Assembly: GCA_015295835.1 (NCBI GenBank)
Contig: DVEG01000007.1
Coordinates: 1-53,290 of the forward strand
DNA length: 53,290 nt
Direction of reading: 5' to 3'
Source of the DNA: Oscillatoriaceae cyanobacterium M7585_C2015_266
GTDB taxonomy: Bacteria > Cyanobacteriota > Cyanobacteriia > Cyanobacteriales > Oscillatoriaceae
A program made the translations under genes and the position numbers. The notes beneath the pieces are model-generated. The model was given only the letters and a program-made list of their open reading frames with translations, had not been told where the DNA came from and searched no databases. Below are positions 7,074 through 48,277 of this stretch, one piece after another (positions within the stretch are counted from its first letter, which is position 1; each line of letters starts with the position of its first letter).

Positions 7074-10000
7074 TTAAGCTTTAGCCGTTTCTTTCATATC
7101 CCCGTCTTGCGTAGATTTATCCTCTTTAACTTGCCCAGAGCCATTGCCTTTGTGTCCATTAGAAACTTCTAGCTTGCGAGCTGCCAGATATTCGTACATA
7201 CTCCAGCGGTTTTTCACATCTTGCTCTGCTTCTTTAAGCAAGCGTTTAGCATCTTCTGGCTTACTCTTAGTTAACATCTTAAAGCGGTTTTCCGCATACA
7301 TATAGTTTTCCAGAGGCAATTTTGGCGTGCGGCAATCAAGTTGCAGCGGATTTTCGCCGTGTTTAGCGCGCTCTGGATTATAGCGATACAACAGCCAACT
7401 GCCAGAATCCACCGCTGCTTTTTGTTGCTGCATTCCTTTCATCATATCGATGCCGTGAGCAATGCAGTGCGAATAGGCGATAATCAAAGAAGGACCATTG
7501 TATGCTTCTGCTTCTAAGAATGCCTTGAGAGTATGTTCATCTCGTGCGCCCATTGCTACACTGGCGACATAAACATTGCCATAAGTCATAGCCATCAAGC
7601 CTAAATCTTTTTTAGGTGCTGGCTTGCCGCCGGCTGCAAATTTTGCTACAGCTGCGCGCGGGGTGGCTTTAGACATTTGCCCGCCTGTGTTAGAATAGAC
7701 GCCTGTATCGAGTACGAGAATATTGACATTGCGCCCGCTGGCTAGAACATGATCTAATCCGCCGAAGCCGATATCATAAGCCCAACCGTCGCCGCCGATA
7801 ATCCAGACGCTCTTTTTAACTAGATAGTCGGCTACGCTGAGGAGTTGTTTAGCTTCTGGAGAGTCGAGTTGTTGCAGTTTTTGTTTGAGGGCGGCTACTC
7901 GCTCTCGCTGCTCATAGATATCCGCTTCGTCTTTTTGCTCTGCGTTGATAATTTCTTCAACGAAACTATCACCTAATTCGGGAGCTAGTTTTTTCGCTAG
8001 TTCGCAAGCAAATTCTGCTTGTTTGTCGATTGAGATGCGGAAACCTAAACCAAATTCGGCATTATCTTCAAACAAACTATTTGACCATGCGGGGCCTAAC
8101 CCTTCAGAATTTTTCGTCCAAGGAGTAGTTGGCAAGTTGCCGCCGTAGATAGAAGAGCAGCCGGTTGCGTTGGCAATTATCATGCGATCGCCGAATAATT
8201 GACTTGCCAATTTCAGATACGGCGTTTCACCGCAACCTGCACAAGCACCGGAGAATTCAAATAGCGGCTCTTGCATTTGTTGCTGACGAATTTGATTTAG
8301 TTTTAATTTACGGCGGTCGGGATTTGGCAAGCTGAGGAAGAAATCCCAATTTTTCCTTTCACTTTCTCTCAAAGGCGGCTGCGGTGCCATATTGAGCGCC
8401 TTCAATTTCGGCTGAGATTTATTTTTAGCAGGGCAAACATCTACACAGATACCGCAACCGGTGCAATCTTCTGGCGCTACTTGGATAGTGAATTTTAGCC
8501 CTTTCCAATCGTGGTCTTTTGCATCTGTAAATTTGAAAGTTTCCGGCGCCTTTTCTAATTCTTTCTCATCGTAAACTTTTTCCCGGATGACACTGTGCGG
8601 ACATACCATCACGCACTTACCGCATTGTACACAAACTTCTGGGTCCCAAACAGGTATTTCCATCGCAATATTGCGTTTTTCCCATTTGGCAGTACCGGTG
8701 GGATAAGTGCCGTCATTTGGTAGGGCGCTTACTGGTAGCAAATCCCCGCACTTGGCAATCATCATTCCTTGTACATCGCGTACAAAGGCTGGGGCCAAGT
8801 CGGGAACCGGCGATCGCAGTCTAATTTCACTTGTGGCCTTTTCCGGTACTTTCACCTCATATAAGTGAGCCAGAGCCTTATCTACTGCCTTTAAGTTCAT
8901 TTGCACAATCTCTTGCCCCTTCTTGCCATAAGTCTTTTGAATAGACTTCTTAATTTCATTGATTGCCTCTTCACGGGGCAACACGCCAGATAGTGCAAAG
9001 AAACACACCTGCATGACTGTGTTAATGTAGCCGCCCATACCACTTTCGCGGGCTACTTTATTCGCGTCACAGACGTAGAATTTCAATTTTTTATTAATTA
9101 TCGTTTCTTGCACTGAACGCGGTAATTTGTCCCATACTTCATCTGGGCCATAAGGGCTATTAAGCAGGAAAGTTGCTCCAGAGGCAGCCAGATGCAACAT
9201 TTCAAATTGTTCAAGGAACTGCCACTGGTGGCAAGCTACAAAATTCGCTTTAGAAATTAAGTAAGTTGAGCGAATTGGATTGGGACCAAAGCGTAAGTGA
9301 GAGACAGTAACTGAACCTGATTTTTTCGAGTCGTAAACAAAATAACCCTGGGCGTAATTATTGGTTTCTTCCCCAATAATTTTGATAGAATTTTTGTTAG
9401 CGCCAACAGTACCGTCGGAACCTAATCCGTAGAATACAGCCCGCACTACGTTATCCGGTTCCGTTGAAAATTCGGGATCGTAGGAAAGACTGGTGTAAGT
9501 TACATCGTCGTTGATGCCAATGGTAAAGTGATTTTTGGGTTTAGCAGCCGCAAGGTTTTCAAAAACTGCTTTAATCATGGCGGGGGTGAATTCTTTCGAT
9601 GATAAACCGTAGCGCCCGCCAACTATTTTAGGCAATGTGCCGTGTTGCCATTCTTCGTGTAAGGCATTGACAACATCGAGATAGAGAGGTTCACCAGCCG
9701 CACCTGGTTCTTTGGTACGATCAAGAACTGCGATCGCTTTGGTAGTAGCTGGCAAACTGGCGGCAAATCGTTTCATATCAAACGGGCGATACAGCCGCAC
9801 TTTCAGCACCCCTACTTTATCGCCCCTGGCATTAAGATAATCAACAGTTTCGTGTACCGCTTCGCAGCCAGAACCCATCAAAACAATAACTCTTTCCGCA
9901 TCAGCAGCACCGTGATATTCGTACAATTGATATTGTCTTCCCGTCATCTGGGCGAATTCATCCATCACTTTTTGTACGATATCCGGGCAGGCATTATAGA

Positions 10001-10706
10001 AAGGATTTACTGTTTCTCGCGCTTGGAAGTAAACATCCGGATTTTGGGCAGTACCCCGTATTACTGGTCGATCAGGTGTAAGGGCGCGCGCCCGGTGAGC
10101 AAATACTAATTCATCTGGGATAAGTTGCCGCAAGTCTTCTTCTGTTAGCATTTCTACTTTCGAGACTTCGTGAGACGTGCGGAAACCATCAAAGAAATGA
10201 ACAAAAGGTACGCGCGCTCTTAGTGTAGCTGCTTGCGATATTAAAGCAAAGTCGTGCGCTTCTTGTACTGAGGCGGAACAAAGCAGGGCAAATCCGGTTT
10301 GCCGAACCGCCATTACATCTTGGTGATCACCGAAAATTGAAAGGGCTTGTGCCGCTAGCGATCTCGCTGCTACGTGAATCACTGCTGCTGTTAATTCGCC
10401 GGCAATTTTATACATATTCGGGATCATTAATAATAATCCCTGTGATGCCGTAAATGTCGTCGTTAACGAGCCTGTCTGTAATGCCCCGTGTACTGCTCCT
10501 GCTGCACCCCCCTCACTCTGCATCTCTACTACACAGGGAACAGTGCCCCATATATTTTTACGCCCTTCTGACGCCCAGGCATCTGCCCATTCACCCATCG
10601 GTGATGCTGGCGTAATCGGATATATGGCAATTACTTCATTCAGTTGATAGGCAACGTGAGCAACTGCCTCATTAGCATCTAACGTTGCAAACTTTCTCTT
10701 ACTCAT
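7074..10706 (-). CDS. nifJ: pyruvate:ferredoxin (flavodoxin) oxidoreductase
   Basis: This single-chain PFOR of 1210 residues oxidises pyruvate with CoA to acetyl-CoA, CO2 and reduced ferredoxin or flavodoxin. Domains in order: the pyrimidine-binding TPP domain (YPITPASPMGEWAD near residue 30, EMQSEGGAAGA), transketolase-C-like domain, gamma domain (GLGSDGTVGANK), two 4Fe-4S motifs (CVQCGKCVMVCP and CTGCGICVDVCP), then the C-terminal TPP domain with CAGCGETPYLKL, NATGCSSIYGG and GGDGWAYDIGFGG. All expected cysteines are present. I start at ATG 10706 (SKRKFATLDANEAVAHVAY); the upstream TTG at 10769 would add a 21-residue tail absent from the family. The C-terminus has a hydrophilic Lys/Glu/Gly tail. 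It is the only intact pyruvate-to-acetyl-CoA enzyme in the window, since pflBA is broken. Reduced ferredoxin could feed Hox. Confidence 0.97.
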   Translation of the reverse strand: MSKRKFATLDANEAVAHVAYQLNEVIAIYPITPASPMGEWADAWASEGRKNIWGTVPCVVEMQSEGGAAGAVHGALQTGSLTTTFTASQGLLLMIPNMYKIAGELTAAVIHVAARSLAAQALSIFGDHQDVMAVRQTGFALLCSASVQEAHDFALISQAATLRARVPFVHFFDGFRTSHEVSKVEMLTEEDLRQLIPDELVFAHRARALTPDRPVIRGTAQNPDVYFQARETVNPFYNACPDIVQKVMDEFAQMTGRQYQLYEYHGAADAERVIVLMGSGCEAVHETVDYLNARGDKVGVLKVRLYRPFDMKRFAASLPATTKAIAVLDRTKEPGAAGEPLYLDVVNALHEEWQHGTLPKIVGGRYGLSSKEFTPAMIKAVFENLAAAKPKNHFTIGINDDVTYTSLSYDPEFSTEPDNVVRAVFYGLGSDGTVGANKNSIKIIGEETNNYAQGYFVYDSKKSGSVTVSHLRFGPNPIRSTYLISKANFVACHQWQFLEQFEMLHLAASGATFLLNSPYGPDEVWDKLPRSVQETIINKKLKFYVCDANKVARESGMGGYINTVMQVCFFALSGVLPREEAINEIKKSIQKTYGKKGQEIVQMNLKAVDKALAHLYEVKVPEKATSEIRLRSPVPDLAPAFVRDVQGMMIAKCGDLLPVSALPNDGTYPTGTAKWEKRNIAMEIPVWDPEVCVQCGKCVMVCPHSVIREKVYDEKELEKAPETFKFTDAKDHDWKGLKFTIQVAPEDCTGCGICVDVCPAKNKSQPKLKALNMAPQPPLRESERKNWDFFLSLPNPDRRKLKLNQIRQQQMQEPLFEFSGACAGCGETPYLKLASQLFGDRMIIANATGCSSIYGGNLPTTPWTKNSEGLGPAWSNSLFEDNAEFGLGFRISIDKQAEFACELAKKLAPELGDSFVEEIINAEQKDEADIYEQRERVAALKQKLQQLDSPEAKQLLSVADYLVKKSVWIIGGDGWAYDIGFGGLDHVLASGRNVNILVLDTGVYSNTGGQMSKATPRAAVAKFAAGGKPAPKKDLGLMAMTYGNVYVASVAMGARDEHTLKAFLEAEAYNGPSLIIAYSHCIAHGIDMMKGMQQQKAAVDSGSWLLYRYNPERAKHGENPLQLDCRTPKLPLENYMYAENRFKMLTKSKPEDAKRLLKEAEQDVKNRWSMYEYLAARKLEVSNGHKGNGSGQVKEDKSTQDGDMKETAKA

Positions 10707-11109
10707 ATCGTCCCATTTTAGTTCGTATTTAAACAACGTTTTCGTTGTTTTTTCTGTTGAAATTAACAAAAGGCTACCCTTTAACTTGTTTTTAACCTCT
10801 ACTGTTTATTTCTGCTTCCTCGCCTATATAATTTAACTCATTTTTTCTAATTTTTGGAGGGTAATTATTTTTTTCTCAAACAGAAAGCTGCCAAACTAAC
10901 TTACTGTAGGATTTTCCAAAAATGTTAAAAATTTTTTAAATTTTTGGCCTACAAAATCGGGATTTATGGATATAATAAATGGAAAAATAAAAAAATATAA
11001 AAATTTTTCAGCTAGTATTAATATATATGCTAGAATAAAAGGGAGGAGGGAGAAAACAAATTTTGTCAGCCAGCGATCGCAAATAGGGGAGAGCGCAAAT
11101 AGGGTATAT
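10707..11109 (-). promoter_or_regulatory. nifJ upstream region
   Basis: This 403-bp AT-rich region lies between hypC and nifJ, both leftward. It holds a HIP1 octamer (GCGATCGC, about 11,074) and a repeated GCAAATAGGG near 11,080-11,105, just after the hypC stop. The nifJ promoter must lie here because nifJ has no close upstream gene, but no clear -35/-10 or NtcA-type GTA-N8-TAC site could be assigned. A poly-A/T tract around 10,920-11,040 may be a curved DNA element. Confidence 0.45.
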
Positions 11110-13769: not shown

Positions 13770-16511
13770 TTATAAATCGATTACAGCTTTGACGACATCA
13801 TCTTCGTGAGAAAGATGAAAGCCAAATTTTTCGCAAAGGCGCTGCATTTCTATGTTTTCGGGAAGAATATCAGCACTGATGCGGGAGAGTTTTTCATCAC
13901 GCCCGACTTGTAATAAACGAGAGAGTAATTCAGTACCTAATCCCCGATGTTGGAATTCGTCAGTGACAAGAAGTCCGAATTCAGCTTCATTGACACCGTG
14001 TAATTTACTCAGACGCCCGAAACCAAGGATGCGGCGCTCGCCAGAGACAGGATCACGGTATTCGCCCACAAGTGCCATTTCCCGATCGTAGTCAATAAAA
14101 CAAATCCGCGCTAAGCGTTCATGAGAGATGCGACGGGAAAGTTTTAGCAAATGGAAATAGCGGAAATAAACAGAGCGATCGCTCAAGCCCTCGTGAAACT
14201 TCACCACCAGCGGTTCATCTTCAGCGCGAATCGGGCGAATAACCACTGGCGTACCATCCCTAAGAACAGCATTAGAAACATATTGACTAGGATAGGGGCG
14301 AATAGCCAGACGAGGTAATTGCTCCTCTGTAACATCAGGCTCGTGAAGCACCACCCTAGCATCTAAAGCAATTAACTGTTCAGAAGACGCCAACAACGGG
14401 TTAATATCAATCTCCTTAATCCAGCGCTGCTCAACCACAAGCTGACTGAAGCGCACCATAAGCTGTTCAAGCGCAGCCAAATCGACCGGAGCCCGCCCCC
14501 GTACCCCCTTAAGAGCAGAATAAATTTTTGTCTGTTCCATCATTCGCCGCGCCAGCGTAGTATTTAGCGGCGGCAGCCCCAGAGCTCGATCTTTAAACAC
14601 CTCCACCAGTTGACCCCCTGTACCGAACAGCAAAACAGGGCCAAATTGCGGATCGAGACTGCTACCGATAATCAATTCATAACCCTCTAGCCTAATCATC
14701 TTCTGAACAGTGACGCCCTGGAAATGTTCTGCGCCCACCTTTTCTGAAACAGAAGATAAAATAGCGCCATAGGCTTTGCGTACCTCATCGGCAGCCATTA
14801 AATTTAAGCGCACCCCGCCAACATCAGTTTTGTGAGTGATAGTTTCCGAAAACAGTTTTAGAACTACAGGATAGCCGATTTCCTCGGCATACTGAACAGC
14901 CTCATCTTCGCTGCTAGCGATGCGAGTAACAACGGTAGGGATACCGTAACAAGCCAGTAATTGCTTAGATTCAAACTCAGTCAACAAAGTACGCCCTGCG
15001 GCGCGACAAGATTGGATGATAGCTTCTGCAGTAGAAATATCGCAAATGCCATTCGAGCAACTCCCGACGTCAGCACCCAATACTGGGGTTTCATAGATGC
15101 CGCGCAAATTGTAGCTGTAGCGCCACATATAGTTAAATAGGCGGGCAGCTGTATCAGGGAAAGGGAAAGTAGGAATATTAGCTTGATTAAGAATTTCAGC
15201 ACCCGCTGCCACTTCATCTCCCCCCATCCAGCTGGCAAGAACTGGCTTGCCCTTGATTTTGGCAAAGCGTTTTAGTTCTAGAGCTGTACCTGTTGGATCG
15301 GTCATTGCCTGGGGCGTAAGGATAACGAGCAAGCCGTCACTTTTCGGATCATTGGCTGCCACCTCTAGAGTTTTGGCATAGCGCTGCGGTTCAGCATCTC
15401 CGAGAATGTCAATCGGGTTGCCGTGGCTCCAGTGTGGAGGCAAAAACTTATTTAGTTCTTCGATAGTTTCTGAAGAAAGTTCTGTCAGCTTGCCGCCTTC
15501 AGTAATTAGGGCATCAGTAGCAATCACACCAGGGCCACCTGCATTTGTAACAATAGTTAGGTTGGGGCCTTTTGGACGTGGCTGTTTGGCTAATACTTCT
15601 GCCATGTAGAAGAGGTAAGAAATATTATTGACGCGCAACACACCGCAGCGGCGGAAGGCGGCATCGAGTACTTCGTCGGAGCCAGTCAGAGAACCGGTAT
15701 GGGAGGCAGCGGCTTTGGCGGCTGCTTCTGTGTGCCCGACTTTGATGACGATAATCGGCTTGCTGAGAGCAACTTCTCGTGCTGCCGAGAGGAAGGAGCG
15801 GGCGTCGCCGACGGATTCCATGTACATAACGATGCTCTCGGTGTTGGGATCGTCTCCGAGATAGTAAATTAAGTCGCCCCAACCGACATCGAGCATTGAG
15901 CCTATGGAAATGAAGGTGCTAAAACCAACGTTTTCCCGGAAGCTCCAATCTAAGACTGCTGTACACAATGCCCCGCTCTGGCTGATGAAGCCAACTTTTC
16001 CAGGCTTGGCCATGCGTGAAGCAAAGGATGCGTTTAATCCGTTTATGGGGTTGATTACGCCTAGACAGTTTGGCCCGATAATCCGCATCCGCCCCCGGCG
16101 GGCTTGTTCAAGTATTTGTCGCTCTAATTCGACTCCGGCTGAGCCGGTTTCTTTGAAGCCGGCTGAGATGATTATTGCCCCTTTGACGCCAGCGTCTACG
16201 CACTCGCTGATTATGCCCGGTACTGTCGGCGCTGGTGTTACTACTACGGCAAGATCAACGGGATCGGGTACAGAGGCTATGTTTGGATAGGCTTTGATGT
16301 TTAAGACGCTGTGTCTATTGGGGTTGACGGGAAATACGGTTCCGCCAAAGGGATTGTTGATTAGGTTTGATAAAAGGGTGCGTCCTACACTGCCCGGTTT
16401 CTCTGTGGCACCGATGACGGCAACGGTTTGCGGCTTGAATATGGCATCGAGGGGTTGTCGTTCGTAGCGCAGTACGTCTCTGTCGGGTTCTGTGGTGGTT
16501 GCGATCGCCAT
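13770..16511 (-). CDS. ADP-forming acyl-CoA synthetase fused to a GNAT acetyltransferase domain
   Basis: This 913-residue multidomain protein starts at ATG 16511. It has an N-terminal CoA-binding Rossmann domain ([14 protein letters not shown], about 30-43), succinyl-CoA-ligase-like domains ([19 protein letters not shown]) and the loop [12 protein letters not shown], in which His271 matches the phosphorylated His of archaeal ADP-forming acetyl-CoA synthetases. An ATP-grasp domain follows ([14 protein letters not shown], second conserved His), then a C-terminal GNAT domain (about 740-910) with the acetyl-CoA loop [10 protein letters not shown]. The layout is that of Pat/YfiQ lysine acetyltransferases. 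From memory those often lack the phospho-His; here both His are kept, so acetyl-CoA + ADP + Pi to acetate + ATP is plausible, alongside protein acetylation. It is divergent from adhE. Which activity dominates in vivo cannot be told from sequence. Confidence 0.88.
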
Positions 16512-17097: not shown

Positions 17098-19776
17098 ATG
17101 AGCGTTACAAATAGTCAAGAACTCGAAGCCCTTATCCAGAAAGTAAAAACAGCTCAGGAAAAATATGCCACCTACACCCAAGAACAGGTGGATCATATTT
17201 TCAAGAGAGCAGCGCTAGCAGCTAACGCGGCTCGTATTCCGCTGGCAAAAATGGCTGTAGAAGAAACAGGGATGGGAGTCGTAGAGGATAAAGTGATTAA
17301 AAATCACTTTGCCTCCGAATACATCTATAACAAATACAAGAACGAAAAAACCTGCGGCGTAATTGAAGAAGATAAATCATTTGGATATCAAAAAATAGCC
17401 GAGCCCGTGGGAGTGCTGGCAGGAATAGTGCCAACAACCAACCCAACATCAACGGCAATTTTCAAAACACTGATTACCCTGAAAACTCGCAACGGAATTA
17501 TATTATCACCACACCCGCGCGCCAAGGGCTGCACCATTGAAGCAGCAAAAATTGTACTGAGAGCAGCAGTAGAAGCCGGCGCTCCCGAAAATATTATCGG
17601 CTGGATTGATGAACCCACGGTGGAATTGTCGCAGCAACTGATGCAGCATCCTGACATTAAATTAATATTAGCAACGGGTGGCCCAGGTATGGTGAAAGCG
17701 GCGTATTCGTCAGGGCACCCTTCTCTGGGAGTGGGTGCTGGCAATACGCCGGCAGTAATTGATGAAACTGCTCATATCAAAATGGCGGTGTCTTCAATTC
17801 TGCTGAGTAAAACTTTTGACAATGGCATGATTTGTGCGTCAGAGCAGTCGGTGATTGTCGTCGATGAAGTCTACGATGCAGTAAAACAAGAATTTATCGA
17901 ACGCGGCGCCTATTTCCTGACGCCAGAAGAAACAGAAAAAATGCGTGCCAAAATAGTTGTAAATGGTCGCTTGAATGCTGAGATTGTCGGGCAACCAGTA
18001 GAAAAACTGGCACAATTGGCGGGAATAACTGTTCCGCCTAATACGCGAGTGCTAATTGGGGAAGTAGAAGAAATCGGCATAACGGAGCCTTTTTCTTATG
18101 AAAAATTGTCGCCAATTTTGGCAATGTATCGCGCCAAAACTTATGAAGAAGCAGTAGACAAGGCGGCATTGTTGGTACTATTTGGCGGGCACGGGCATAC
18201 GTCGGTACTCTATACTGCACCATCAAATTATGAGCGGATTAAGTATTTTGAATCGAAAGTAGAAACGGCTAGGGTGTTAATTAATACACCAAGTTCTCAA
18301 GGTGCGATCGGTGATTTATACAATTTCCGTCTCGATCCGTCACTGACATTGGGTTGCGGCACTTGGGGGGATAACTCAGTGAGCGAAAATGTCGGTCCTC
18401 AACACTTATTAAATATCAAAACAGTGACGGAACGGCGAGAAAATATGCTCTGGTTCCGGATTCCACCAAAGATTTATTTCAAATACGGCTGTTTGGCAAT
18501 GGCCCTTGGGGATTTGAAGGGCAAGAAACGGGCGTTTATTGTTACTGACAAGCCTCTGTTTGACTTGGGGATAACAGATAAAGTAACAGATGTTCTGGAT
18601 GAATTGGGTATTAAGCACGAAGTATTTTACGAGGTAGAGCCGGATCCGACTCTGGCAACAGTTAATAAGGGGCTAGCTAATATTAATATTTTCCAACCTG
18701 ATGTAATAATTGCGATCGGTGGCGGTTCGCCAATGGATGCGGCAAAAATAATGTGGCTGATGTACGAACATCCAGAAACGGAGTTCGAGGGAGTGGCAAT
18801 GCGGTTTATGGATATCCGCAAGCGGGTGTACGAATTGCCGCCTCTAGGAGCTAAAGCAATTATGGTAGCAATTCCGACGACTTCGGGTACGGGTTCGGAA
18901 GTAACGCCATTTGCAGTAGTTACAGATGAGCGTACGGGAATTAAATATCCTCTGGCAGATTATGCGCTGACGCCAAATATGGCAATAGTTGATCCAGAGT
19001 TGGTGATGAATCTGCCGAAGAAATTGACGGCTTATAGCGGTATTGACGCACTAACTCATGCCCTGGAAGCTTATGTTTCTGTATGCGCTTCTGAGTTTAC
19101 AAATGGGCTGGCGCTAGAAGCAATTCGTCTACTGTTTAAATATTTGCCTTCTGCGTATAAAAATGGCGCTCTCGATCCTAAGGCGCGGGAAAAAGTCCAT
19201 TACGCTGCTACAATGGCAGGGATGGCTTTTGCTAATGCGTTTCTGGGAATTTGCCACTCGATGGCGCATAAGTTGGGATCTACTTTCCATTTGCCGCACG
19301 GCTTGGCAAATGCACTGCTGATTTCTCATGTTATCCGTTATAATGCGACGGATGCGCCTCTGAAGCAAGCTATTTTCCCACAATACAAGTATCCAAATGC
19401 AAAGTGGCGTTATGCTCGAATTGCAGATTACTTGGGATTGGGTGGCAAAACGGAAGAGGAAAAGGTTGAAAAGCTTATTGAGGCGATCGAAAATCTTAAA
19501 CGTGAGCTGGATATTCCGCTGACGATTAAGGAGGCTCTCTCCGGTGACGATAAAATTTTCTACGAACAAGTGGAAAAAATGGCAGAGCAGGCTTTTGATG
19601 ATCAGTGTACGGGTTCTAACCCCCGCTATCCTCTGATTCGTGATTTGAAAGAATTGTATACTTTGGCTTATTGCGGCTGCCGCCTAGACTCGGTGCTCTA
19701 TCATACGCCGCCGCAGGAAGAAGTGCTCCAAGGTAATGAAAAGGTACCGGATGTGCTGCAAGCGCTGAAGGGATAA
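17098..19776 (+). CDS. adhE: bifunctional aldehyde-alcohol dehydrogenase AdhE
   Basis: The 892-residue enzyme reduces acetyl-CoA to acetaldehyde and then ethanol with 2 NADH. The N-terminal CoA-acylating aldehyde dehydrogenase domain (about 1-440) has PTTNPTSTAIFK, the GGPGMVKAAYSSGHPSLGVG nucleotide region and the catalytic Cys in NGMICASEQS. The C-terminal iron-dependent alcohol dehydrogenase domain (about 455-880) has AIGGGSPMDAAKIM, PTTSGTGSEVTPFAV, HALEAYVS, and the metal-site histidines in GICHSMAHKLGSTFHLPHGLANALL. Length and order match canonical AdhE, with no lesion seen. It regenerates NAD+ during dark fermentation. It opens the rightward block and is followed by a small palindrome and the Ap4A phosphorylase-like gene after about 100 bp, so co-transcription is possible. 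In organisms with a working PFL, AdhE can also act as PFL deactivase; here PFL is broken. Confidence 0.97.
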   Translation: MSVTNSQELEALIQKVKTAQEKYATYTQEQVDHIFKRAALAANAARIPLAKMAVEETGMGVVEDKVIKNHFASEYIYNKYKNEKTCGVIEEDKSFGYQKIAEPVGVLAGIVPTTNPTSTAIFKTLITLKTRNGIILSPHPRAKGCTIEAAKIVLRAAVEAGAPENIIGWIDEPTVELSQQLMQHPDIKLILATGGPGMVKAAYSSGHPSLGVGAGNTPAVIDETAHIKMAVSSILLSKTFDNGMICASEQSVIVVDEVYDAVKQEFIERGAYFLTPEETEKMRAKIVVNGRLNAEIVGQPVEKLAQLAGITVPPNTRVLIGEVEEIGITEPFSYEKLSPILAMYRAKTYEEAVDKAALLVLFGGHGHTSVLYTAPSNYERIKYFESKVETARVLINTPSSQGAIGDLYNFRLDPSLTLGCGTWGDNSVSENVGPQHLLNIKTVTERRENMLWFRIPPKIYFKYGCLAMALGDLKGKKRAFIVTDKPLFDLGITDKVTDVLDELGIKHEVFYEVEPDPTLATVNKGLANINIFQPDVIIAIGGGSPMDAAKIMWLMYEHPETEFEGVAMRFMDIRKRVYELPPLGAKAIMVAIPTTSGTGSEVTPFAVVTDERTGIKYPLADYALTPNMAIVDPELVMNLPKKLTAYSGIDALTHALEAYVSVCASEFTNGLALEAIRLLFKYLPSAYKNGALDPKAREKVHYAATMAGMAFANAFLGICHSMAHKLGSTFHLPHGLANALLISHVIRYNATDAPLKQAIFPQYKYPNAKWRYARIADYLGLGGKTEEEKVEKLIEAIENLKRELDIPLTIKEALSGDDKIFYEQVEKMAEQAFDDQCTGSNPRYPLIRDLKELYTLAYCGCRLDSVLYHTPPQEEVLQGNEKVPDVLQALKG

Positions 19777-23432: not shown

Positions 23433-24081
23433 ATGAAAACTACCTATGAAATTAGAACTCAATCAATTAATCATCCCGCCCAATATCTGCTGATAAAAAA
23501 TGTCAGTTGGCAGATGTTTGAGAAAATATTAGATGAGTTAGGCGAAAATCGGGCAGCTAGTCTGTTTTATAATAAAGGAACATTGGAAATTATGACTCCC
23601 TTGCCTGAACATGAAGTAGACAAGAAAATTATCAGTAATTTAGTTGAAATTCTCCTAGAAGAACTAAACATTTTGGAGTTTGGGTTCTACTACATTTAAA
23701 AACGAAAATATGCAGCAAGCAGTCGAACCCGATGATTGTTTTTACATCCAGAATGAAGCTGTAGTGCGAGGGAAAAAACAAATCGATTTAACCTTAGATC
23801 CGCCGCCAGATTTAGTAATCGAAATTGACATTAGTTCTCGAACTCAGTTAAAGAATTATGAAGCCCTAGGAGTGCGGTAAGTTTAGCGCTATAATGGTAG
23901 TAGGTTGCAAATTAATGTTTTACAAGAGGGAAAATATGTAGAATCTCAGACTTGCCCGAATTTTCCGGGCTTGCCACTCACTGAAATAATTCCACAATAT
24001 TTAGAGCGGAGTATCGTTACAGGTAGAAACGCGACAATGAGAGCTTTTAGAAATTGGGTGCGAGAGCAGGTGTTTCAATAA
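23433..24081 (+). pseudogene. Uma2-family (DUF820) endonuclease-fold protein, decayed
   Basis: The N-terminal part (MKTTYEIRTQ, then LLIKNVSWQMFEKILDELGENRA, LEIMTPLPEHE) is a typical Uma2 start, but the frame ends at 23,697-23,699 after an extra base near 23,681-23,686. Shifting frame restores FGSTTFKNENMQQAVEPDDCFYI and PPPDLVIEIDI, which carry the PD-(D/E)xK-like core. Reading continues to two further stops, TAA 23,878-23,880 and TAG 23,884-23,886, at the usual GVPELWRY site, and then resumes to a natural stop at 24,081. Total length is 649 nt, i.e. 216 codons plus one base. One frameshift and two nonsense codons make a non-functional gene. Uma2 genes are numerous in cyanobacteria, and loss of single copies is common. 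Confidence 0.85.
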
Positions 24082-24137: not shown

Positions 24138-25001
24138 TTACAGCAATAGCGACATTTCTGACAGTATTTTTTCTCGCTCATTCTCTAGGTAGCTATACCA
24201 CTTATCCATGCCGGCACCCGTGCGGGCTGAGACTTCAAATATTTTTGCCTGCGGGGCAATTTTGCGAATATTTGTCAGCGCCTTTTCTCGATCAAATCCC
24301 ACTACTTCGGCAATGTCAATTTTATTTACAATTATTGTGTGGGCAGATTTGAACATGGTAGGATATTTTAGTGGCTTATCTTCTCCTTCGGTAACGGATA
24401 AGATTACTACTCGTAAGCTTTCACCTAAATCGTAAACTGCAGGGCAAACTAAATTACCTACATTTTCGATAATCAGCAGTTGTAACCCATCCAGATTAAG
24501 CTGTTTTGCGGCTCGCGCTACCATTTCTGCTTCTAGGTGACAGACTGTGCCGGTGGTAATTTGTACAACAGAGGTGTTACCGACGCTGCGTAGACGCTGG
24601 GCGTCGTTGTCGGTTTCTAAATCCCCAACTATGACGCCAATCTTGAGGCGAGCGCCTATATCTTTAATCATGCGTTCCAAAAGCGCAGTTTTCCCAGATC
24701 CGGGGGAAGAAAGTAAGTTCAGTACTAGCAATCCTTTTGCTAAAAAATAGCCACGATTGCGCTCGGCAAGGCGGTCATTTTTGTCGAGAATCGACTGCGC
24801 GATCGCCACCATTCTGCTGCCATTCCCACTTGTTTCGTGATTGTGGTGATGATGTTCGTGTTCGTGCTCGTGGTGATGATGTTCGTGTTCGTGCTCGTGG
24901 TGATGATGTTCGTGTTCGTGCTCGTGATGGTGATGATGTTCGTGGTTATGACTGTGAATTCCTATTTCACCCACCACGCTACAGCCGCAATCTTTACACA
25001 T
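24138..25001 (-). CDS. hypB: hydrogenase nickel-insertion GTPase HypB, His-rich
   Basis: HypB is a SIMIBI GTPase that, with HypA, delivers Ni to the HoxH precursor. The 287-residue protein starts MCKDCGC, the CxxCGC high-affinity Ni site of full-length HypB. A stretch of about 38 residues made almost entirely of His and Glu follows (roughly 17-56, three EHEHEHHHH repeats), which may store nickel. Then come the GTPase motifs: P-loop SSPGSGKT (about 98-105), [19 protein letters not shown] and NKIDIAEV. The start is ATG 25001. It is the last gene of the hox-pfl-hoxW-hypA-hypB array, 95 bp after hypA. Histidine tracts are known in HypB of several bacteria; this one is unusually regular because of a DNA repeat. 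Confidence 0.97.
24844..24924 (-). repeat. hypB: 3 x 27-bp tandem repeat coding His/Glu tract of HypB
   Basis: Three identical 27-bp units (24,844-24,870, 24,871-24,897, 24,898-24,924), with a partial fourth at each side, encode nine-residue EHEHEHHHH repeats in frame. Period and codon identity show recent slippage-type expansion rather than slow divergence. Copy number could vary between strains. Confidence 0.9.
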
Positions 25002-25096: not shown

Positions 25097-25441
25097 CTAT
25101 TCTGAAAGCTCCAAAGATGCTAATTCAATCTCTTTTCCCTTCCGTACTTCAGAACTTAGTTCTCCGCACTGTGGACACTCATAAAATAAGTAAGCAGGCT
25201 GAAACTCTATATTACAGTTTGGGCAGTAGCAGACGACGGGCACTTCTTCTATTTCTAGTATAGCACCTTCGGCGAGGGTATCTCGTGTAACGATATCAAA
25301 AGCAAACTCTAGGGCTTCGGGCACAACGCCTGACATTGCACCTATACGCATTTTTAGGCGGAGAATTTTTTGGGCATTTTGTTGGTGGGCATACTCTAGG
25401 GCAAGTTCTAGAGCTTGCTCCATTATACTTACTTCATGCAC
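25097..25441 (-). CDS. hypA: hydrogenase nickel-delivery protein HypA
   Basis: A 114-residue protein when read from GTG 25441 (V/M-HEVSIMEQALELA). HypA needs a free N-terminal Met-His to bind nickel, and this start places His at position 2, so I choose it over an in-frame TTG 15 bp upstream. The zinc site is intact: CPNC (Cys73, Cys76) and CPQC (Cys89, Cys92). The GTG overlaps the hoxW stop (GTGCATGA, 8 nt), implying translational coupling from hoxW. It passes Ni to HypB, whose gene follows. Length is typical. Confidence 0.95.
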   Translation of the reverse strand: MHEVSIMEQALELALEYAHQQNAQKILRLKMRIGAMSGVVPEALEFAFDIVTRDTLAEGAILEIEEVPVVCYCPNCNIEFQPAYLFYECPQCGELSSEVRKGKEIELASLELSE

Positions 25442-25943
25442 GGCTATCGATTTCAAAAGTTAAAAAATTTTCAGATTTCAGCAAACGCCAAATTTGCTCT
25501 AAAGCCTCAGCCACGCCCTGGGAGGTTATGGGGGATAACTCCTCGCCGAAATCAAAGTTTACGGCGGGAATCAGTAGCCACCAAGCAGGAGGGGAGTGGT
25601 GGTAAAGGGTTTGGGAAAGGGCTAAGAGCGCTCGCGGATCACTGACATGTGCTGAAAAATTGCCTGCCTCTTCATTCGGAAAAATGCGCATTATTTTCAG
25701 AGAATTTTCCTGAGCATTTTTATCTACTGGATAGGCATCTATAAAAATTACCAGTTGCGCTTGCGAGATATCTTCGGCGAGTTCGGGAGTTAATTGTTGG
25801 ATAGCGATCGCTCGTGCAAAAGGCAAATTCCAAGCTTCTACTGTAGTTGCCACAATCTGCCCCGCACCGTCGTCACTTCTGAGCGTATTGCCATATCCGA
25901 TCGCTAGAATTTTCTCTTTCTTTTTTACTTTCTCGCTTATCAT
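25434..25943 (-). CDS. hoxW: HoxH C-terminal maturation protease HoxW
   Basis: The 169-residue protein has the hydrogenase-protease N-terminal signature ILAIGYGNTLRSDDGAG (about 12-28), whose acidic residues coordinate Ni in the immature large subunit, and the hydrophobic VIFIDAYPV strand. A HoxW-type C-terminal part follows (HVSDPRALLALSQTLYHHSPPAWWLLIPAVNFDFGEELS). It is expected to cleave the HoxH tail after His449 once Ni is in place. The start is ATG 25943. The stop overlaps hypA. Its position downstream of hoxH, next to hypAB, supports HoxW rather than an uptake-hydrogenase HupW protease, although the intervening pfl genes are an intrusion in the usual order. Confidence 0.93.
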   Translation of the reverse strand: MISEKVKKKEKILAIGYGNTLRSDDGAGQIVATTVEAWNLPFARAIAIQQLTPELAEDISQAQLVIFIDAYPVDKNAQENSLKIMRIFPNEEAGNFSAHVSDPRALLALSQTLYHHSPPAWWLLIPAVNFDFGEELSPITSQGVAEALEQIWRLLKSENFLTFEIDSRA

Positions 25944-25950
25944 CTGAATT

Positions 25951-26705
25951 TTAAATTTTCAATATTCCTGCATTTACACCGTTTTCTTTAAATATCTCGA
26001 CTACTCATTTTACCTGTTCTGGCGTCGGTTCTGGTGTTTCTTTTAGTTGTAATCATACCCTAATTGCTCCCACTTGTATTCTCCCATTTTGTGAAATGGT
26101 AAAATTTCTACTCTTTCTACATTATCTAACTTAGTAATAAATTTGGCAAGCCCTTCGACATTTTCTAAAGCATCGGTTAAACCCGGCACCAAGACAAAAC
26201 GAATCCACGTCGGTTTTTTAATTTCTCTGAGATACTCTGCTAATTGAAGAGTTGGAGCGAGCGCTACCCCCACAACCTTAAGATAAATTTTTGGCTCAAA
26301 AGATTTGATATCCAATAGCACCAAATCCGTATAATCCAACACAGGTTTTGCCGCACTTAAATTAACATAACCAGAAGTATCAAGGGCGGTGTGAATTCCC
26401 AAGGCTTTGCAGCGGCGGAAAATTTCTCTAACAAATTCTGGCTGCATCAACGGTTCGCCGCCACTGACAGTGACACCACCACTAGAAAAGCGCATGTAAG
26501 AGCGATATTTGTGAATTTCTACAATCAATTCGTCAACTGTTATTTCTTTCCCTTCTTCAAAGTTGCGACAATCAGGATTATGGCAGTAAAGACAGCGCAA
26601 AGGGCAGCCCTGAGTAAAGATAACAAATCTAATACCAGGACCATCTACAGTGCCGCAGGTTTCTACTGAGTGAATTTTACCAGCAATGGAGGTTTGGGTT
26701 ATCAT
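25951..26705 (-). pseudogene. pflA: pyruvate formate-lyase activating enzyme, C-terminally frameshifted
   Basis: The intact part encodes 220 residues with radical-SAM motifs: GTVDGPGIRFVIFTQGC, CLYCHNPDC (CxxxCxxC cluster) and VSGGEPLMQPEF. The frame stops at 26,043 after GYDYN. Adding one C restores a family-like tail (LKETPEPTPEQVK, then VVEIFKENGVNA) to a stop at 25,951, but with an internal TGA. The restored length of about 251 codons matches E. coli PflA at 246 residues. So one base deletion plus one nonsense remove the last roughly 28 residues. Residual activity of a 220-residue protein cannot be excluded, but the partner pflB is also broken. Its position between pflB and hoxW is co-directional with both. 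Confidence 0.85.
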
Positions 26706-26777
26706 TGTTTAGGCCGGGATTAAGGATTGACAATAATGGGGATAGCCGCCAACTGAGCTAAATATTAAATTAAATAA

Positions 26778-29058
26778 TTAAATGTGTTCGTGGAAAGTTC
26801 GGTTAATTACGTCGAGCTGTTGTTCACGAGTGAGTTTGATGAAGTTGACGGCGTAACCAGAAACACGGATAGTAAGTTGTGGGTATTTTTCTGGGTGTTC
26901 CATCGCTTCTAAAAGGGTTTGGCGATCAAGAACGTTGACGTTAATGTGATGTCCTCCGTCGTGGAAATATCCGTCGAGCATTCCTATTAGATTGTTGATT
27001 TTATCGGCTTCTGTTTTTCCTAGGGCTTTCGGTAGAATAGAGAAGGTATAGGAAATGCCATCTTGTGCATGTTCGTAGGGAATTTTGGCGACGGAAGCCA
27101 TAGAAGCGATCGCTCCTTTCATATCTCGTCCGTGCATCGGGTTTGCTCCCGGTGCAAATAGTTCGCCTGCTTTGCGTTTGTCTGGCGTGTTGCCTGTTTT
27201 CTTCCCGTATACTACATTGGAGGTAATAGTGAGAACTGATTGAGTAGGCACTGCATTGCGATAGGTTTTCTGCTTGCGCAGTTTGTTCATAAATTCTTTG
27301 ACGAGATTGGCAGCTATCTCATCAACGCGCTCGTCATTATTCCCGTATTTGGGATAATCTCCTTCAATTTGATAATCTACGGCTAAGCCTAGTTCGTTGC
27401 GGATGACTTTGACTTTGGCATATTTCATCGCTGAAAAAGCGTCTGCTACTACTGATAATCCCGCAACTCCACACGCCATCGTTCTTAAAATATCGCGATC
27501 GTGCAGCGCCATTTCAAGACGCTCGTAGCAGTATTTATCATGCATGTAGTGGATAACATTGAGGGTGTTGATGTACAATTTCGCAAGCCACTCAAGTAAG
27601 TGATCAAATTTTGCTTTTACTTCTTCATAATTTAGATAATCTCCCGTGACGGGGGCAAATTCTGGCCCTACTTGTTCGCCGGATAATTCGTCTTTGCCAC
27701 CATTAATGGCATACAGTAATGCTTTTGCTAGGTTAGCACGGGCTCCAAAAAATTGCATCTGTTTGCCTATGCGCATAGCGCTGACGCAGCAAGCGATCGC
27801 ATAGTCATCGCCATATTCCGGACGCATTAAATCATCATTTTCGTACTGTGTCGAGCATGTATCTATTGATACTTTCGCACAGTAGCGCTTAAAGTTAAGA
27901 GGCAAGCGTTCTGACCACAAAATCGTTAGATTAGGTTCCGGTGCTGGTCCTAAATTATACAGGGTATGTAGGAAACGGAAACTATTTTTAGTAACAAGAG
28001 GGCGCCCGTCTACTCCCATACCACCAATGCACTCTGTTACCCAGGTTGGCTCGCCTGAAAATAGCTCATTGTATTCTGGCGTCCGCAAGAAACGCACCAT
28101 CCTCAGTTTGATTACGAAATCGTCAATAATTTCTTGCGCTTCTGATTCCGTAAGAGTACCGTTTTTTAAGTCGCGCTCAAAATAAATATCGAGGAAGGTA
28201 GAAACCCGCCCCAAAGACATCGCAGCTCCATTTTGTTCTTTGACTGCGCCTAAATAGGCAAAGTATGTCCACTGCACTGCTTCTTTGGCGTTGGCGGCAG
28301 GGCGGCTAATATCAAATCCGTAAGCAGCCGCCATTTCTTTTAGTTCTTTCAGAGCGCGAATTTGCTCGGAAATTTCTTCGCGTAGTCGAATAGTCGATTC
28401 ATCCATGACATCGACTTCTAAAAATTCCTGTTGCTGTTGTTTATCTGCAATCAGACGATCAACGCCGTATAAAGCTACGCGCCTATAATCTCCGATAATC
28501 CGCCCCCTCCCATAAGCATCGGGTAAGCCAGTGATAATTCCGGAGTGCCGCGCTTTTTTCATTTCGCGGGTATAGGCATCAAAAACTCCGTCATTGTGAG
28601 TTTTACGGTATTTGGTAAATATTTTTTCTATTTGCGGATCGAGTTTGTAGCCATAAGCTTCTAAACTGGTTTTGACTACTCGAATTCCCCCGAAAGGCAT
28701 AATAGCTCGTTTTAAGGGTTTGTCGGTTTGTAAGCCGACTATTTTCTCTAAGTCGCGATCAATGTATCCTGGTGGTGGGAAGTAATCGTTGAAACGACTT
28801 TTACGTCTGCATCTAAAATTCCTTTGGCTCGTTTTTCTTTCATTAAGTTGCCAACTTTCCCCCACAGTATTTTGGTGCGTTCTGTCGGTTCTGCTAAAAA
28901 TGATTCGTCGCCTTCATAAGGAGTGTAATTTTTTTGTATGAAATCGCGAACGTCTATTTCTTTTGTCCATTTCCCCGGAATAAAACCTTGCCATTGATTG
29001 TCAGCACTTTTGAGGTTTTCAGTTTCAGAAAACTTGGCTGTTCAAGTATTGCTGTCAT
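26778..29058 (-). pseudogene. pflB: pyruvate formate-lyase with two N-terminal frameshifts
   Basis: Most of the enzyme is preserved: [23 protein letters not shown], the twin-Cys active site [10 protein letters not shown], and the C-terminal glycyl-radical motif RVSGYAV followed by NRTFHEHI. The first 95 codons are broken. From ATG 29058 the start MTAILEQ shifts at about 29,038-29,043; the next frame reads [20 protein letters not shown] and VVSTITSH; a second one-base loss at about 28,770-28,780 returns to [21 protein letters not shown]. Total length is 2281 nt; adding two bases gives 760 codons, exactly the E. coli PflB length. The only long frame left lacks a natural start. AGGA lies 6 nt upstream of ATG 29058. 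Functional PFL is unlikely unless these are assembly errors. Confidence 0.9.
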
Positions 29059-29354
29059 AATATCCTTTTCCTATTCTGCCATGAATGTTTATTCTTGTCT
29101 CCTCTCTTAACCTAGCAATTTTTTGATAATTTTTTTATTAATTTTATATTAATTTAATTTTTGGTTTAGAAAAATTATAGAGATTTTATCGATATTGCTA
29201 AAGTAGAGTTCGCCTGAATTAAAGAGCATTTTTTGTAGTACTTATAATTGATTGTGGGGGGAAGCCCGCACTCTTATAATTACTATCTATAAAAAAATAG
29301 GCGGCAATAAAACCGCCTGTATGGTAAGCTAAAAATTATTAGAACAAAGAAATG
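29059..29354 (-). promoter_or_regulatory. pflB leader after hoxH
   Basis: 296 bp between hoxH and the pflB remnant. The hoxH-proximal end carries a strong terminator (separate entry); the rest is AT-rich and must have held the pfl promoter. A TATATTAATTT-like stretch occurs around 29,145-29,160. No ORF seen. Confidence 0.45.
29291..29318 (-). terminator. Rho-independent terminator after hoxH
   Basis: Leftward, the AGGCGG / CCGCCT stem (6 bp, 8-nt loop) is followed at once by seven U (A-run 29,291-29,297). It lies 36 nt past the hoxH stop, so the hoxEFUYH transcript probably ends here and pfl-hoxW-hypAB needs a separate promoter. Confidence 0.85.
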
Positions 29355-30779
29355 TCATTCCCGATACACTTTATTGACAATCGTACCATCTGCAGCGACT
29401 AATTCGACGTATAAAGGCATTTGACCGGCTGCGTGAGTAGAACAGCTTAAACAGGGGTCATAGGCGCGAATTCCGGCTTCTACACGGTTGAGCATACCTT
29501 CAGTAATTTCGTTTCCGTGAATGTAATGCTTGGCAATTTGAGTAACAGTTTTGTTCATTGCCAAGTTATTTTGACCGGTGGCAATAATCAAGTTAACTTT
29601 TTTAATTAAGCCATTTTCGTCTACTTGATAGTGATGGAATAGAGTGCCGCGTGGAGCTTCGCTGACGCCGACACCTTCAAGTTGGTTAATGCCGGCGGTG
29701 GCGCGGGTACGGGTGGAAACAATATCGGGATCTTCTACGAGTCGCTCAATTGCTTCAACAGCGGCGAGAATTTCAATCAAGCGAGCGTAGTGATACATGA
29801 AAGAAGAAGTGGCAATTCTGCCGACGCGATCGCGAAATTCTTGTAATTCTTTATTCGCGTCAGGAGTGCTAATATAGTTACAAACATTGAGGCGAGCCAG
29901 AGGACCTACACGATAAATGCCGTCGGGATATCCCAGAGGTTTATAGTAGGGAAATTTTAGATAAGACCAGGGTTCAATAGCTTCGCCGATATAATCTTGA
30001 TAGTCATCTTCACTGAGATTATCGGCGACAATATTGCCTTCGGAATCTACAAAACGAATATTACCTCCGTAGTGTTCCCATTCGCCATTTTTGCCGACTA
30101 AACCCATGAATAGAGAGGGGAATTTACCGAAAACTTCTACTTCGGTGCTAAACTGATCAAGAAGGCGCTTGAAGAGGGCGAGAGCCATTTCAGTAGTAGC
30201 GCGGGCTTCTGGGAGGCGCTCTCGTATCCAGGCGCGGGATTCTTCAGTTAGAGGCGATCGCACCCCCCCAGGCACTGCCCAAGCAGGGTGAATTTTCTTA
30301 GCTCCCAGTAATTCAATAATTTTCTGCCCAAATTGTCGTAGCCGAATTCCCTTACGAGCCAATTCCGGATCGGCAGACATTAGCCCAAAGATATTACGCG
30401 TAGATGGATTGCTATCCCAACCTAACAGAAAATCCGGACTGCTGAGGTGAAAAAATGACAGAGCGTGCGACTGTAAAATTTGTGCCACATTCATCAGGCG
30501 GCGTAATTTTTCCCCGGCAGGCGGTACTTTTACTGCCTGAATTTTATCTCCTGTTTTTGCCGATGCCAGTAAGTGACTAACTGGACAAATTCCGCAGATT
30601 CTTGCAGTTATTCCTGCCATTTCCCACATTGGGCGCCCTTCACAGAATTTCTCGAATCCCCGAAATTCTACGACGTGAAAGTGAGCGTTTTCTACTTCTT
30701 TTGCATCATTTAAAAAAATCGATATTTTTGCGTGACCTTCTATTCGCGTAACAGGATCTATTACAATTGTCTTAGACAT
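29355..30779 (-). CDS. hoxH: bidirectional [NiFe] hydrogenase large subunit HoxH
   Basis: This is the catalytic subunit of the NAD(P)-linked bidirectional hydrogenase, 474 residues. It carries both Ni-Fe ligand motifs: [10 protein letters not shown] (Cys62, Cys65) near the N-terminus and DPCLSCSTH (Cys443, Cys446) near the C-terminus. Cleavage after His449 by HoxW would remove the 25-residue tail. N-terminal [12 protein letters not shown] is diagnostic. SD GGAGGG lies 7 nt before ATG 30779, the strongest ribosome site in the cluster. It is the last of five hox genes, with a terminator 36 nt downstream. It can produce or take up H2 depending on electron supply. No residue loss seen. Confidence 0.98.
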
Positions 30780-45883: not shown

Positions 45884-48276
45884 ATGTTGAGCGAATTTAA
45901 TTTCAAAGCAGCCAGCGAGCGCATCCTACCTCAAAATATCGAGGCAGAAGAACTAATTCTAGGCGGAATTCTGCTCGATCCGGAAGCAATTAACCGGGTG
46001 ACAGAAATTCTTCGTCCAGAAATGTTTTCCATTACCGCTCACCAACAAATATATAAAGCGGCAATCGAATTGCATAGCAAGGGAATGCCTACAGATTTGA
46101 TGAGCGTCACAACTTGGTTAAGCGATCGCAGCCTATTATCCACAGTCGGTGGGCAAAGTAAACTCGCACAACTTGTCGCTCGCACTGTCTCAACAGTCAA
46201 TATCGATTTGTACGCTAAATTAATCGTCGATAAATACCTACGCCGCACTTTAATTCAAGCAGGTAATCAAGTCGCAGATTTAGGTTACGATACCGCTACC
46301 GAACTGCCCCTGATTATGGAGCGGGCAGAACAAATAATTTTCAACGTTACTCAGTCACGCCCGCAACAAGGTCTAATTCCTATTTCCGATACGCTTATTC
46401 AAACTTTCCAAGATATCCAAAATCGCAATCAGGGCGCAGTTATGCCCGGATTGACTTGCGGATTTTATGATCTTGATGCCATGACAGGAGGTTTTCAACG
46501 CTCGGATTTAATTGTTATCGCCGGCAGACCTTCAATGGGAAAGTGTTTGACGGCTGATTCTATTATATTACAAGCAGACGGAAGTTTAAGCACAATTGCA
46601 GAAATTTATAATCAGCGGCAAGCAAATTTATTAACGCTAGGGCAAGATTGGAAATTTCATATAACTCAACCATCTGAGTTTATAGATGATGGAATTAAAC
46701 CTGTGTTTCGGGTGACAACGCAACTGGGAAGGGTTCTAGAAAGCACAATAACACACCCTTATCTGACTGTAGAAGGATGGCAACCTTTAGAAAAACTAAA
46801 ACCAGGCGATAAAATTGCCGTGCCTCGGAGGTTAGAAGTTTTTGGAAAAGCAACTATCCGGGAATGTGAGGTAGATTTGCTTGCCTATTTGATAGGAAAT
46901 GGTTGTTTGACAGGTGAGTTACCGCAATTTACTAATAGTAACTCTAAAGTCATAGAGGAATTTAAGCAGGCGATCGCAGATTTTTCACCGGAATTGATTG
47001 TAAAGATAGAAACTCAAAAAGAACGAGCAGCCATTTTGTACACAGTAACTCAGAAAAATAATAATAAAAAGAATCCCCTGATTGAATGGCTACAGTATAT
47101 AGGAATATGGGGTAAAAAAGATACGGAAAAAATAATTCCAGCATTTTTATTTAAATTAAAGCGCTCACTAATCTCTCGCTTTCTCAATCGTTTATTTGTT
47201 ACTACTGGTTATAGTTTAATAGAAAAACTAAAAATAGGATATATTACAGTAAGTAAAAATCTAGCGCAACAATTGCAACATCTTTTACTGAGATTTGGTA
47301 TAATTTCTAGAATTGACAAACAAAAAAATATAGATTTATGGTATTTAGATATTACAGCTGAATCTATAAAAGATTTTATTATTGAAATATCGCGGCAGCA
47401 AATAGAAATAAAAAATGTATTAGAAAATATAGAGAAATTGCCTTTACAGCAACTAACGACAAGTGATATTTACTGGGATGAAATAGCATATATTGAGGCA
47501 GTAGGCTGTAAGCAAGTTTATGATTTGACTATACCAGGAACCCACAATTTTATTGCTAATGATATTTGCGTTCACAACACAGCTATTTCAGTTTCAATTG
47601 CCCGCAACATTGCGATGACTCACAAACAGCCAGTAGCAATTTTTAGCTTAGAAATGTCTAAAGAGCAACTGGTGCAGCGTTTGTTAGCAGGAGAAGCAGG
47701 TATTGAGAGCAATCGATTGCGCTCAGGGCGGATTAGTCAGAATGAATGGGAACAGTTGAGTCGTGCGATCGGGATTTTGTCAGAACTACCTATTTTTATT
47801 GACGATACCAGTAATATCACAGTTACAGAAATTCGCAGTCAGTCGCGCCGCCTAATGGCAGAGCAAGGAGGAACACTGGGACTAATTTTAATAGATTACT
47901 TGCAGTTAATGGAAGGGTCAAACGCTGACAACAACCGCGTGCAAGAGTTATCGAGAATTACCCGTGGTTTAAAAGGTTTAGCTCGCGAATTGAACGTGCC
48001 AGTAATTGCCCTATCTCAACTCAGTCGTGGCGTAGAAACGCGCACAAACAAACGTCCGATGTTATCTGATTTAAGAGAATCGGGTTCAATTGAACAAGAT
48101 GCAGATATAGTTATAATGTTGTACCGCGATGAATATTATTCACCAGATACACCAGATCGGGGAATTGCAGAAATTATTATTGCTAAACACAGAAATGGCC
48201 CCACGGGAACGGTGAAATTACTTTTCGATCCACAATTTACCCGCTTCCGGAATATGGCTATGCCCAATCGGCTATA

Positions 48277-48277
<1 letters not shown>
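45884..48277 (+). CDS. dnaB: replicative DNA helicase DnaB with in-frame intein
   Basis: A 797-residue precursor. The extein is a normal DnaB of 452 residues: an N-terminal primase-interacting domain (LPQNIEAEELILGGILLDPEAI), the RecA-like core with the split Walker A GRPSMGK-T, IFSLEMSKEQLVQRLL, Walker B LGLILIDYLQLM, LSQLSRGVETR, and the DLRESGSIEQDADIVIMLYRDEYY end. The intein (separate entry) lies between Lys220 and Thr566. Without splicing the P-loop is destroyed, so cell survival depends on splicing. The extein joint is K/T, and the +1 nucleophile is Thr. The later ESG/SIEQD site, occupied by the Synechocystis DnaB intein, is empty here. ATG 45884 follows a heptamer hairpin; no strong SD. 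Confidence 0.97.
46544..47578 (+). mobile_element. DnaB intein, 345 residues, with degenerate LAGLIDADG endonuclease
   Basis: Splicing motifs are intact: Cys1 (CLTADSIIL), the block B pair Thr-x-x-His in TITHPYLTVEGW (about 68-71), and the C-terminal GTHNFIANDICVHN ending His-Asn, followed by Thr. The C-terminal phrase resembles the Synechocystis DnaB intein (SDIYWD, VYDLTIPG, HNFIAND). The middle (about 110-260) keeps a homing-endonuclease fold, but motif 1 reads LLAYLIGNGCL (Asp to Asn119) and motif 2 FLNRLFVTTGYSL (Asp to Thr221), so both catalytic acids are missing. The element is AT-rich and uses A/T-ending codons more than the extein. It probably splices but no longer homes. Confidence 0.93.

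Follow-up and report, generated by a model that had tools for sequence, protein, structure and literature searches.

Probable recent inactivation of pflB and pflA by small frame-changing lesions in an Oscillatoriaceae cyanobacterium

Results

In the cyanobacterial genome analysed here, the pyruvate formate-lyase (PFL) genes pflB and pflA have probably been inactivated recently by small frame-changing lesions. The only copies detected contain three frame changes and an additional stop but otherwise still encode conserved protein sequence, and frameshifts are nearly absent from the remainder of the genome. The window, that is, the whole stretch of DNA analysed, is the entire contig C6 (53,290 bases) of a source genome of 3.98 Mb in 35 contigs that is 98.5% complete. 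Six other genomes of the family that are at least 95% complete have sizes of 6.4–8.6 Mb, compared with which the small size of this genome may reflect genome reduction.

Reading frames of pflB and pflA

pflB lies on the minus strand (29058–26778), and two frame changes, both in the first ∼95 codons, are needed to read it; a single full-length frame is absent and three frames are required. The 5′ piece (28954–29058, minus strand) begins at ATG 29058 and stops after 34 codons. Its PflB part is MTAILEQPS only, and these first nine codons agree with the variable N-terminus of the family. The first frame change was located by frame comparison at 29035–29046 (near 29042). The second piece, open for 97 codons (28751–29041, minus strand), carries the conserved N-terminal region (QWQGF...VRDFIQKNYTPY...ITSH). 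Its homology extends from FSETENLK to ITSH (about 29040–28776), with HMM positions 1–76 at 28769–28996, and no ATG, GTG or TTG was found ahead of the conserved part. The second frame change, at 28765–28785 (near 28775), was detected by the homology scan described below as well as by frame comparison.

The main frame of pflB comprises 695 codons when read from GTG 28865 (26778–28865, minus strand); it is homologous from about 28774 (PPGYIDRDL...) and open to 26778. It matched TIGR01255 with 1153.5 bits (curated cut-off 994.2) over profile positions 52–743 of 744, and it contains IACCVS and RVSGY, which we take to be the active-site cysteines and the glycyl-radical motif of PflB, respectively. 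The main frame has no equivalent of E. coli residues 1–85. A start at GTG 28865 would add about 31 unrelated residues, and inspection by eye revealed no Shine–Dalgarno-like sequence ahead of this codon.

pflA is also on the minus strand (26705–25951); it is interrupted by one frame change close to the 3′ end and, beyond that, by a TGA in the tail. The frame starting at 26705 runs for 220 codons (26043–26705) and stops at a premature TAA (26045–26043) after KWEQLGYDYN, without the tail that corresponds to E. coli residues 217–245. The family tail QLKETPEPTPEQVK goes on in another frame past this stop. The out-of-frame tail (25951–26042, minus strand) includes the extra TGA (26007–26005) and ends at its own TAA (25953–25951), 7 bases before the ATG of hoxW. 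The 220-codon frame scored 312.8 bits against TIGR02493 (cut-off 231.75); the in-frame match ends at position 213 of 235, and it extends to position 232 only if the stops are read through. PflA is left without its last ∼30 residues.

An earlier note on this DNA had proposed two one-base losses within the first 95 codons of pflB, and a one-base loss together with a TGA that remove the tail of pflA. This description of the two genes proved correct: both frame changes of pflB were seen in the frame comparison, and in pflA we found the frame change close to the 3′ end and the TGA at 26007–26005. The retention of the Cys pair and the glycyl-radical motif that the note described was likewise observed in the main frame of pflB, and the restored lengths (760 and 251 codons by outer coordinates) are close to those of E. 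coli (759 and 245 residues in the PDB chains), as it had stated. Profile searches of the 3.98 Mb genome detected neither a second pflB, both matches being pieces of one gene, nor another pflA that exceeds the cut-off, three weaker matches falling below it. A second functional pfl copy elsewhere in the genome was rejected on these grounds.

Neighbouring genes and specificity of the breakage

The genes on the minus strand follow the order hoxE, hoxF, hoxU, hoxY, hoxH, pflB, pflA, a hoxW-like protease gene, hypA and a hypB-type gene, where the names that go beyond family matches are our own assignments from position and recall. The NiFe hydrogenase large subunit gene in the hoxH position (29355–30779) and the hydrogenase maturation protease gene (hoxW-like; 25434–25943) are open and match their families; hypA (25097–25456) and the gene for a CobW/HypB/UreG nucleotide-binding protein in the hypB position (24138–25001) are open as well, all four being on the minus strand. 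Elsewhere in the window are nifJ, encoding pyruvate:ferredoxin oxidoreductase (PFOR; 7074–10769, minus strand), and adhE (17098–19776, plus strand), both open at full length, together with hypF, hypD, two phosphofructokinase genes and a gene for an acetyl-CoA-synthetase-like/acetyltransferase protein. The latter gene (13770–16511, minus strand) encodes a protein of 913 aa that combines an acetyl-CoA-synthetase-like part (ADP-forming type) with a C-terminal acetyltransferase part; it adjoins hypF, and its relatives are present in several pflB loci. The window also contains a DnaB helicase gene with an intein bearing a LAGLIDADG domain (45884–48277, plus strand) and a psbA-like Photo_RC fragment truncated by the contig end (53101–53286, plus strand).

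The gap between hoxH and pflB holds a terminator-like hairpin with a T run (29299–29318, minus strand), which is a consensus match only, and also a promoter-like site. The totals of terminator-like and promoter-like sites in the region were not clearly above those of shuffled sequences (11 versus 12.6 and 28 versus 23.1, respectively).

The view that the breakage is specific to pflB and pflA is supported by the state of the hox genes, hypA/B/D/F, nifJ and adhE beside them, all of which are open and match their families. However, the statement of the earlier note that every neighbouring gene is intact has to be corrected, as a Uma2-family gene (23433–24072, plus strand) is broken too, by a frame change near 23668 and by two or more stops (23878 and 23884). 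The genome has 25 Uma2 matches, and stops occur inside 8 of them, the copy in the window included.

Background level of frameshifts in the genome

Besides the window itself, we scanned 58 stretches from other parts of the genome (1,117,178 bases); the references were 1,501 open frames, taken from 80 stretches of the one-contig relative G046 and from 42 cyanobacterial pfl loci. The homology scan found no clean frameshift in the 247,362 bases outside the window that were covered by homology of at least 40% identity. It flagged three sites overall, one each in pflB, in the Uma2-family gene of the window and in a stretch (L121) where inspection revealed a patchy remnant. The scan recovered 161 of 283 planted single-base deletions (∼57%) and is blind near gene ends; of the three pfl changes it picked up a single one, the other two coming from the frame comparison. 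With the remnant counted, the upper bound of the background is about 8 per 247 kb, which gives 0.1 expected in 3 kb compared with the three seen. This rate is too low for three changes in 3 kb to have arisen by chance, and the scan together with its sensitivity control led us to reject general sequencing or assembly noise as the cause.

The scan also listed nine in-frame stops: two in the Uma2-family gene, one in pflA (26045), five more in the window and one in the stretch L253. The five window stops (33276, 33411, 33474, 33675 and 26667) each came from one single plus-strand reference frame antisense to hoxF or pflA, genes that are open on their own strand. The stop at position 223 of L253 lies 5 codons into the alignment. 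Of 152 tests for truncated gene ends, 14 gave a flag, 8 of these beyond the window. The 6 flags in the window fell twice on pflB, twice on pflA and once each on the acetyl-CoA-synthetase-like protein, whose C-terminus is 22 residues shorter than that of one relative, and on a dihydroorotate-dehydrogenase-like protein, for which 17 N-terminal residues were counted as missing. As other genes were flagged too, the ∼16 missing C-terminal residues of pflA are not distinctive alone; the evidence for the pflA break is the continuation in another frame.

Photo_RC (psbA-like) matches were located at ends of the contigs C6, C13 and C3; Uma2 matches occur within 600 bases of ends of C9 and C15 and of both ends of C2. 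Contig breaks at these two kinds of repeats suggest a short-read assembly, and under short reads indels in base runs as short as these would be rare. The open hoxW, hypA and hypB genes just past pflA argue against a bad stretch of consensus.

Age of the loss

Identical sequences were collapsed before substitutions were counted, and dN/dS was uninformative because synonymous sites were saturated in most pairs. We observed 2 private changes at otherwise invariant columns in the pflB core (42 distinct sequences; others 0–13, only three exceeding this value) and 1 in pflA (34 sequences; others 0–12). The lineage is not generally slow, because the intact adhE holds 8 private changes (15 sequences; others 0–13), the third highest value. 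pflB has 434 columns that are at least 90% conserved, and the window deviates at 12 of them, compared with a median of 7.5 and a maximum of 19 in the other sequences. In pflA it deviates at 2 of 113 such columns, one of these two being an alignment-edge column, compared with a median of 4 and a maximum of 10. The divergent copy L022 was dropped from these 90% counts and kept in the N-terminal and private-change counts. The out-of-frame N-terminal piece of pflB has 2 private changes at 14 columns that are invariant among the others, the second highest value of 39 sequences, so that this segment shows a weak substitution excess.

Neither the pflB core nor pflA up to the shift shows surplus substitutions, and therefore the genes were either inactivated recently or misread in a faulty local consensus. 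It is probable from these counts that both proteins were under selection until recently. This fits the proposal of the earlier note that the loss looks recent, and the counts of unusual substitutions disfavour an old neutral decay. In neutral decay, substitutions are expected to outnumber indels; three indels without a clear substitution excess make an unusual ratio for such a process.

Alternative explanations

The breaks could be local errors of consensus or assembly, in which case the living strain would have intact pflB and pflA. Such errors would be consistent with the absence of a general sign of relaxed selection in the two proteins, with the position of the three frame changes in or beside short single-base runs, and with the window forming a contig by itself, the read depth of which may not be normal. 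However, no clean frameshift was found across 247 kb elsewhere, the flanking genes are open, and the TGA in the pflA tail would have to be a substitution; moreover, the repeat-broken contigs point to short reads, with which indels of this type should be infrequent. We consider this explanation unlikely.

A further point to be set against inactivation is that the three indels are confined to the outer ∼380 of ∼3,000 coding bases instead of being scattered along the genes. As the indels are all terminal, the 664-codon core is lesion-free and conserved, and a GTG-started frame of 695 codons exists, one might think of a shortened working system, in which a tail-less PflA is functional and translation of PflB begins at a downstream start or relies on ribosomal frameshifting. 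Such a system appears very unlikely, as three separate recoding events would be required, inspection by eye showed no Shine–Dalgarno-like sequence ahead of GTG 28865, and the aligned cyanobacterial relatives conserve the N-terminal part that the main frame lacks. This part was apparently needed until recently, because it is still largely conserved here though out of frame. To our knowledge, there is no recoded pfl. It is highly improbable that the terminal breaks and the intact core reflect continued synthesis of an active shortened PFL and an active tail-less activase, or a joining of the frames by recoding. An operon that died long ago and is retained only for the transcription of hoxW, hypA and hypB behind it is barely credible; pflBA indeed lies between hoxH and hoxW, whose ATG closely follows the stop of the pflA tail frame, but neither the pflB core nor the open frame of pflA shows the substitution excess that goes with old decay.

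Consequences for pyruvate metabolism

Under recent inactivation, the reading that we prefer, no working PFL would be made, the N-terminus of PflB being out of frame and PflA being without its tail. Pyruvate would then be directed to PFOR (to ferredoxin and then perhaps to the bidirectional hydrogenase) and to pyruvate dehydrogenase (PDH), AdhE would serve for ethanol, and no formate would be formed. The early stop of pflA might, as a side effect, leave about 100 untranslated bases ahead of hoxW. The proposal that PFOR would be the sole pyruvate-cleaving route did not stand: a profile search, which covered the E1-alpha subunit of PDH only, found this gene open on contig C24 and over the curated cut-off, and PFOR as the only pyruvate-cleaving enzyme is thereby ruled out. 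Cyanobacteria have PFOR as well as PDH, according to the accessible part of PMC8887894.

The cause is probably relaxed selection on PFL, because the deletion of pflB in Leptolyngbya boryana is nearly without growth defect; the available excerpts of PMC6428710 report no defect in diazotrophic growth and an only slightly lower dark anaerobic heterotrophic growth.

If the breaks are real, PFL fermentation has been lost while PFOR, AdhE and the bidirectional hydrogenase have been kept, and the locus adds a minor, recent instance to the patchy distribution of PFL across the order. The main use of this result is a caution against annotating formate fermentation here, since the strain is predicted to ferment without formate.

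Distribution of pflB in the order

A TIGR01255 match is present in 94 of 291 genomes of the order and is over the cut-off in 89. In 88 of these 89, pflB is in one near-complete frame; the other is the genome of the window. The five genomes below the cut-off are G147, G165, G054, G207 and G139. The match of G207 is cut by a contig end, and that of G139 sits in an 841-codon frame, which we infer to encode another glycyl-radical enzyme. PFOR is over the cut-off in 29 of 60 genomes (that of the window and 59 relatives), 16 of them without and 13 (the window's included) with a pflB match. Nine of the 60 genomes have a pflB match without an over-cut-off PFOR, and four have PFOR and AdhE over the cut-off but no pflB match. 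The case is ordinary in that many related cyanobacteria do without PFL, other enzymes being available to them for its step, and in that broken pflB copies occur in three other genomes (see below).

Among the 80 loci listed, which may not include the genome of the window and those near it, the closest pflB is that of Oscillatoria sp. PCC 10802 (85% protein identity). In the loci of relatives, pflA and then often adhE are found, and hox genes occur near pfl only in L025 and L044 (within flanks of 10 kb, about half of the loci having only ∼1.5 kb). Thirteen contigs of the viral collection IMG/VR (L105–L117), putatively viral, encode PflB relatives 63–67% identical to the query. Among the titles of the literature searched, none dealt with a decaying pfl in a cyanobacterium.

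Comparison with known systems

Broken pflB copies situated away from contig ends, with 1500 bases of contig on each side, occur in G147 (loci L264 and L266), G165 (L262) and G054 (L023 and L024), where the breaks may or may not be real mutations. In the window only the ends are hit, whereas G147 retains a remnant from which about 245 internal codons are gone, the match of G165 stops at about residue 505, and G054 has a mid-gene frame change. With E. coli PflB (TIGR01255; PDB 1h16) the window shares the 664-codon core, the Cys pair and the glycyl-radical motif, but its N-terminal ∼95 codons are out of frame in two steps. Similarly, PflA matches its E. coli counterpart (TIGR02493; PDB 3c8f, 8fo0) up to the break, and its tail is out of frame.

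The available portion of PMC4261827 describes Lyngbya aestuarii BL J as having PFOR and a bidirectional hydrogenase, with no PFL gene detected and no formate detected among the products. As far as this portion goes, BL J shows the metabolic state proposed for the genome of the window, namely PFOR and hydrogenase without PFL; in BL J the pfl gene was undetected, whereas in the genome of the window it is present but broken.
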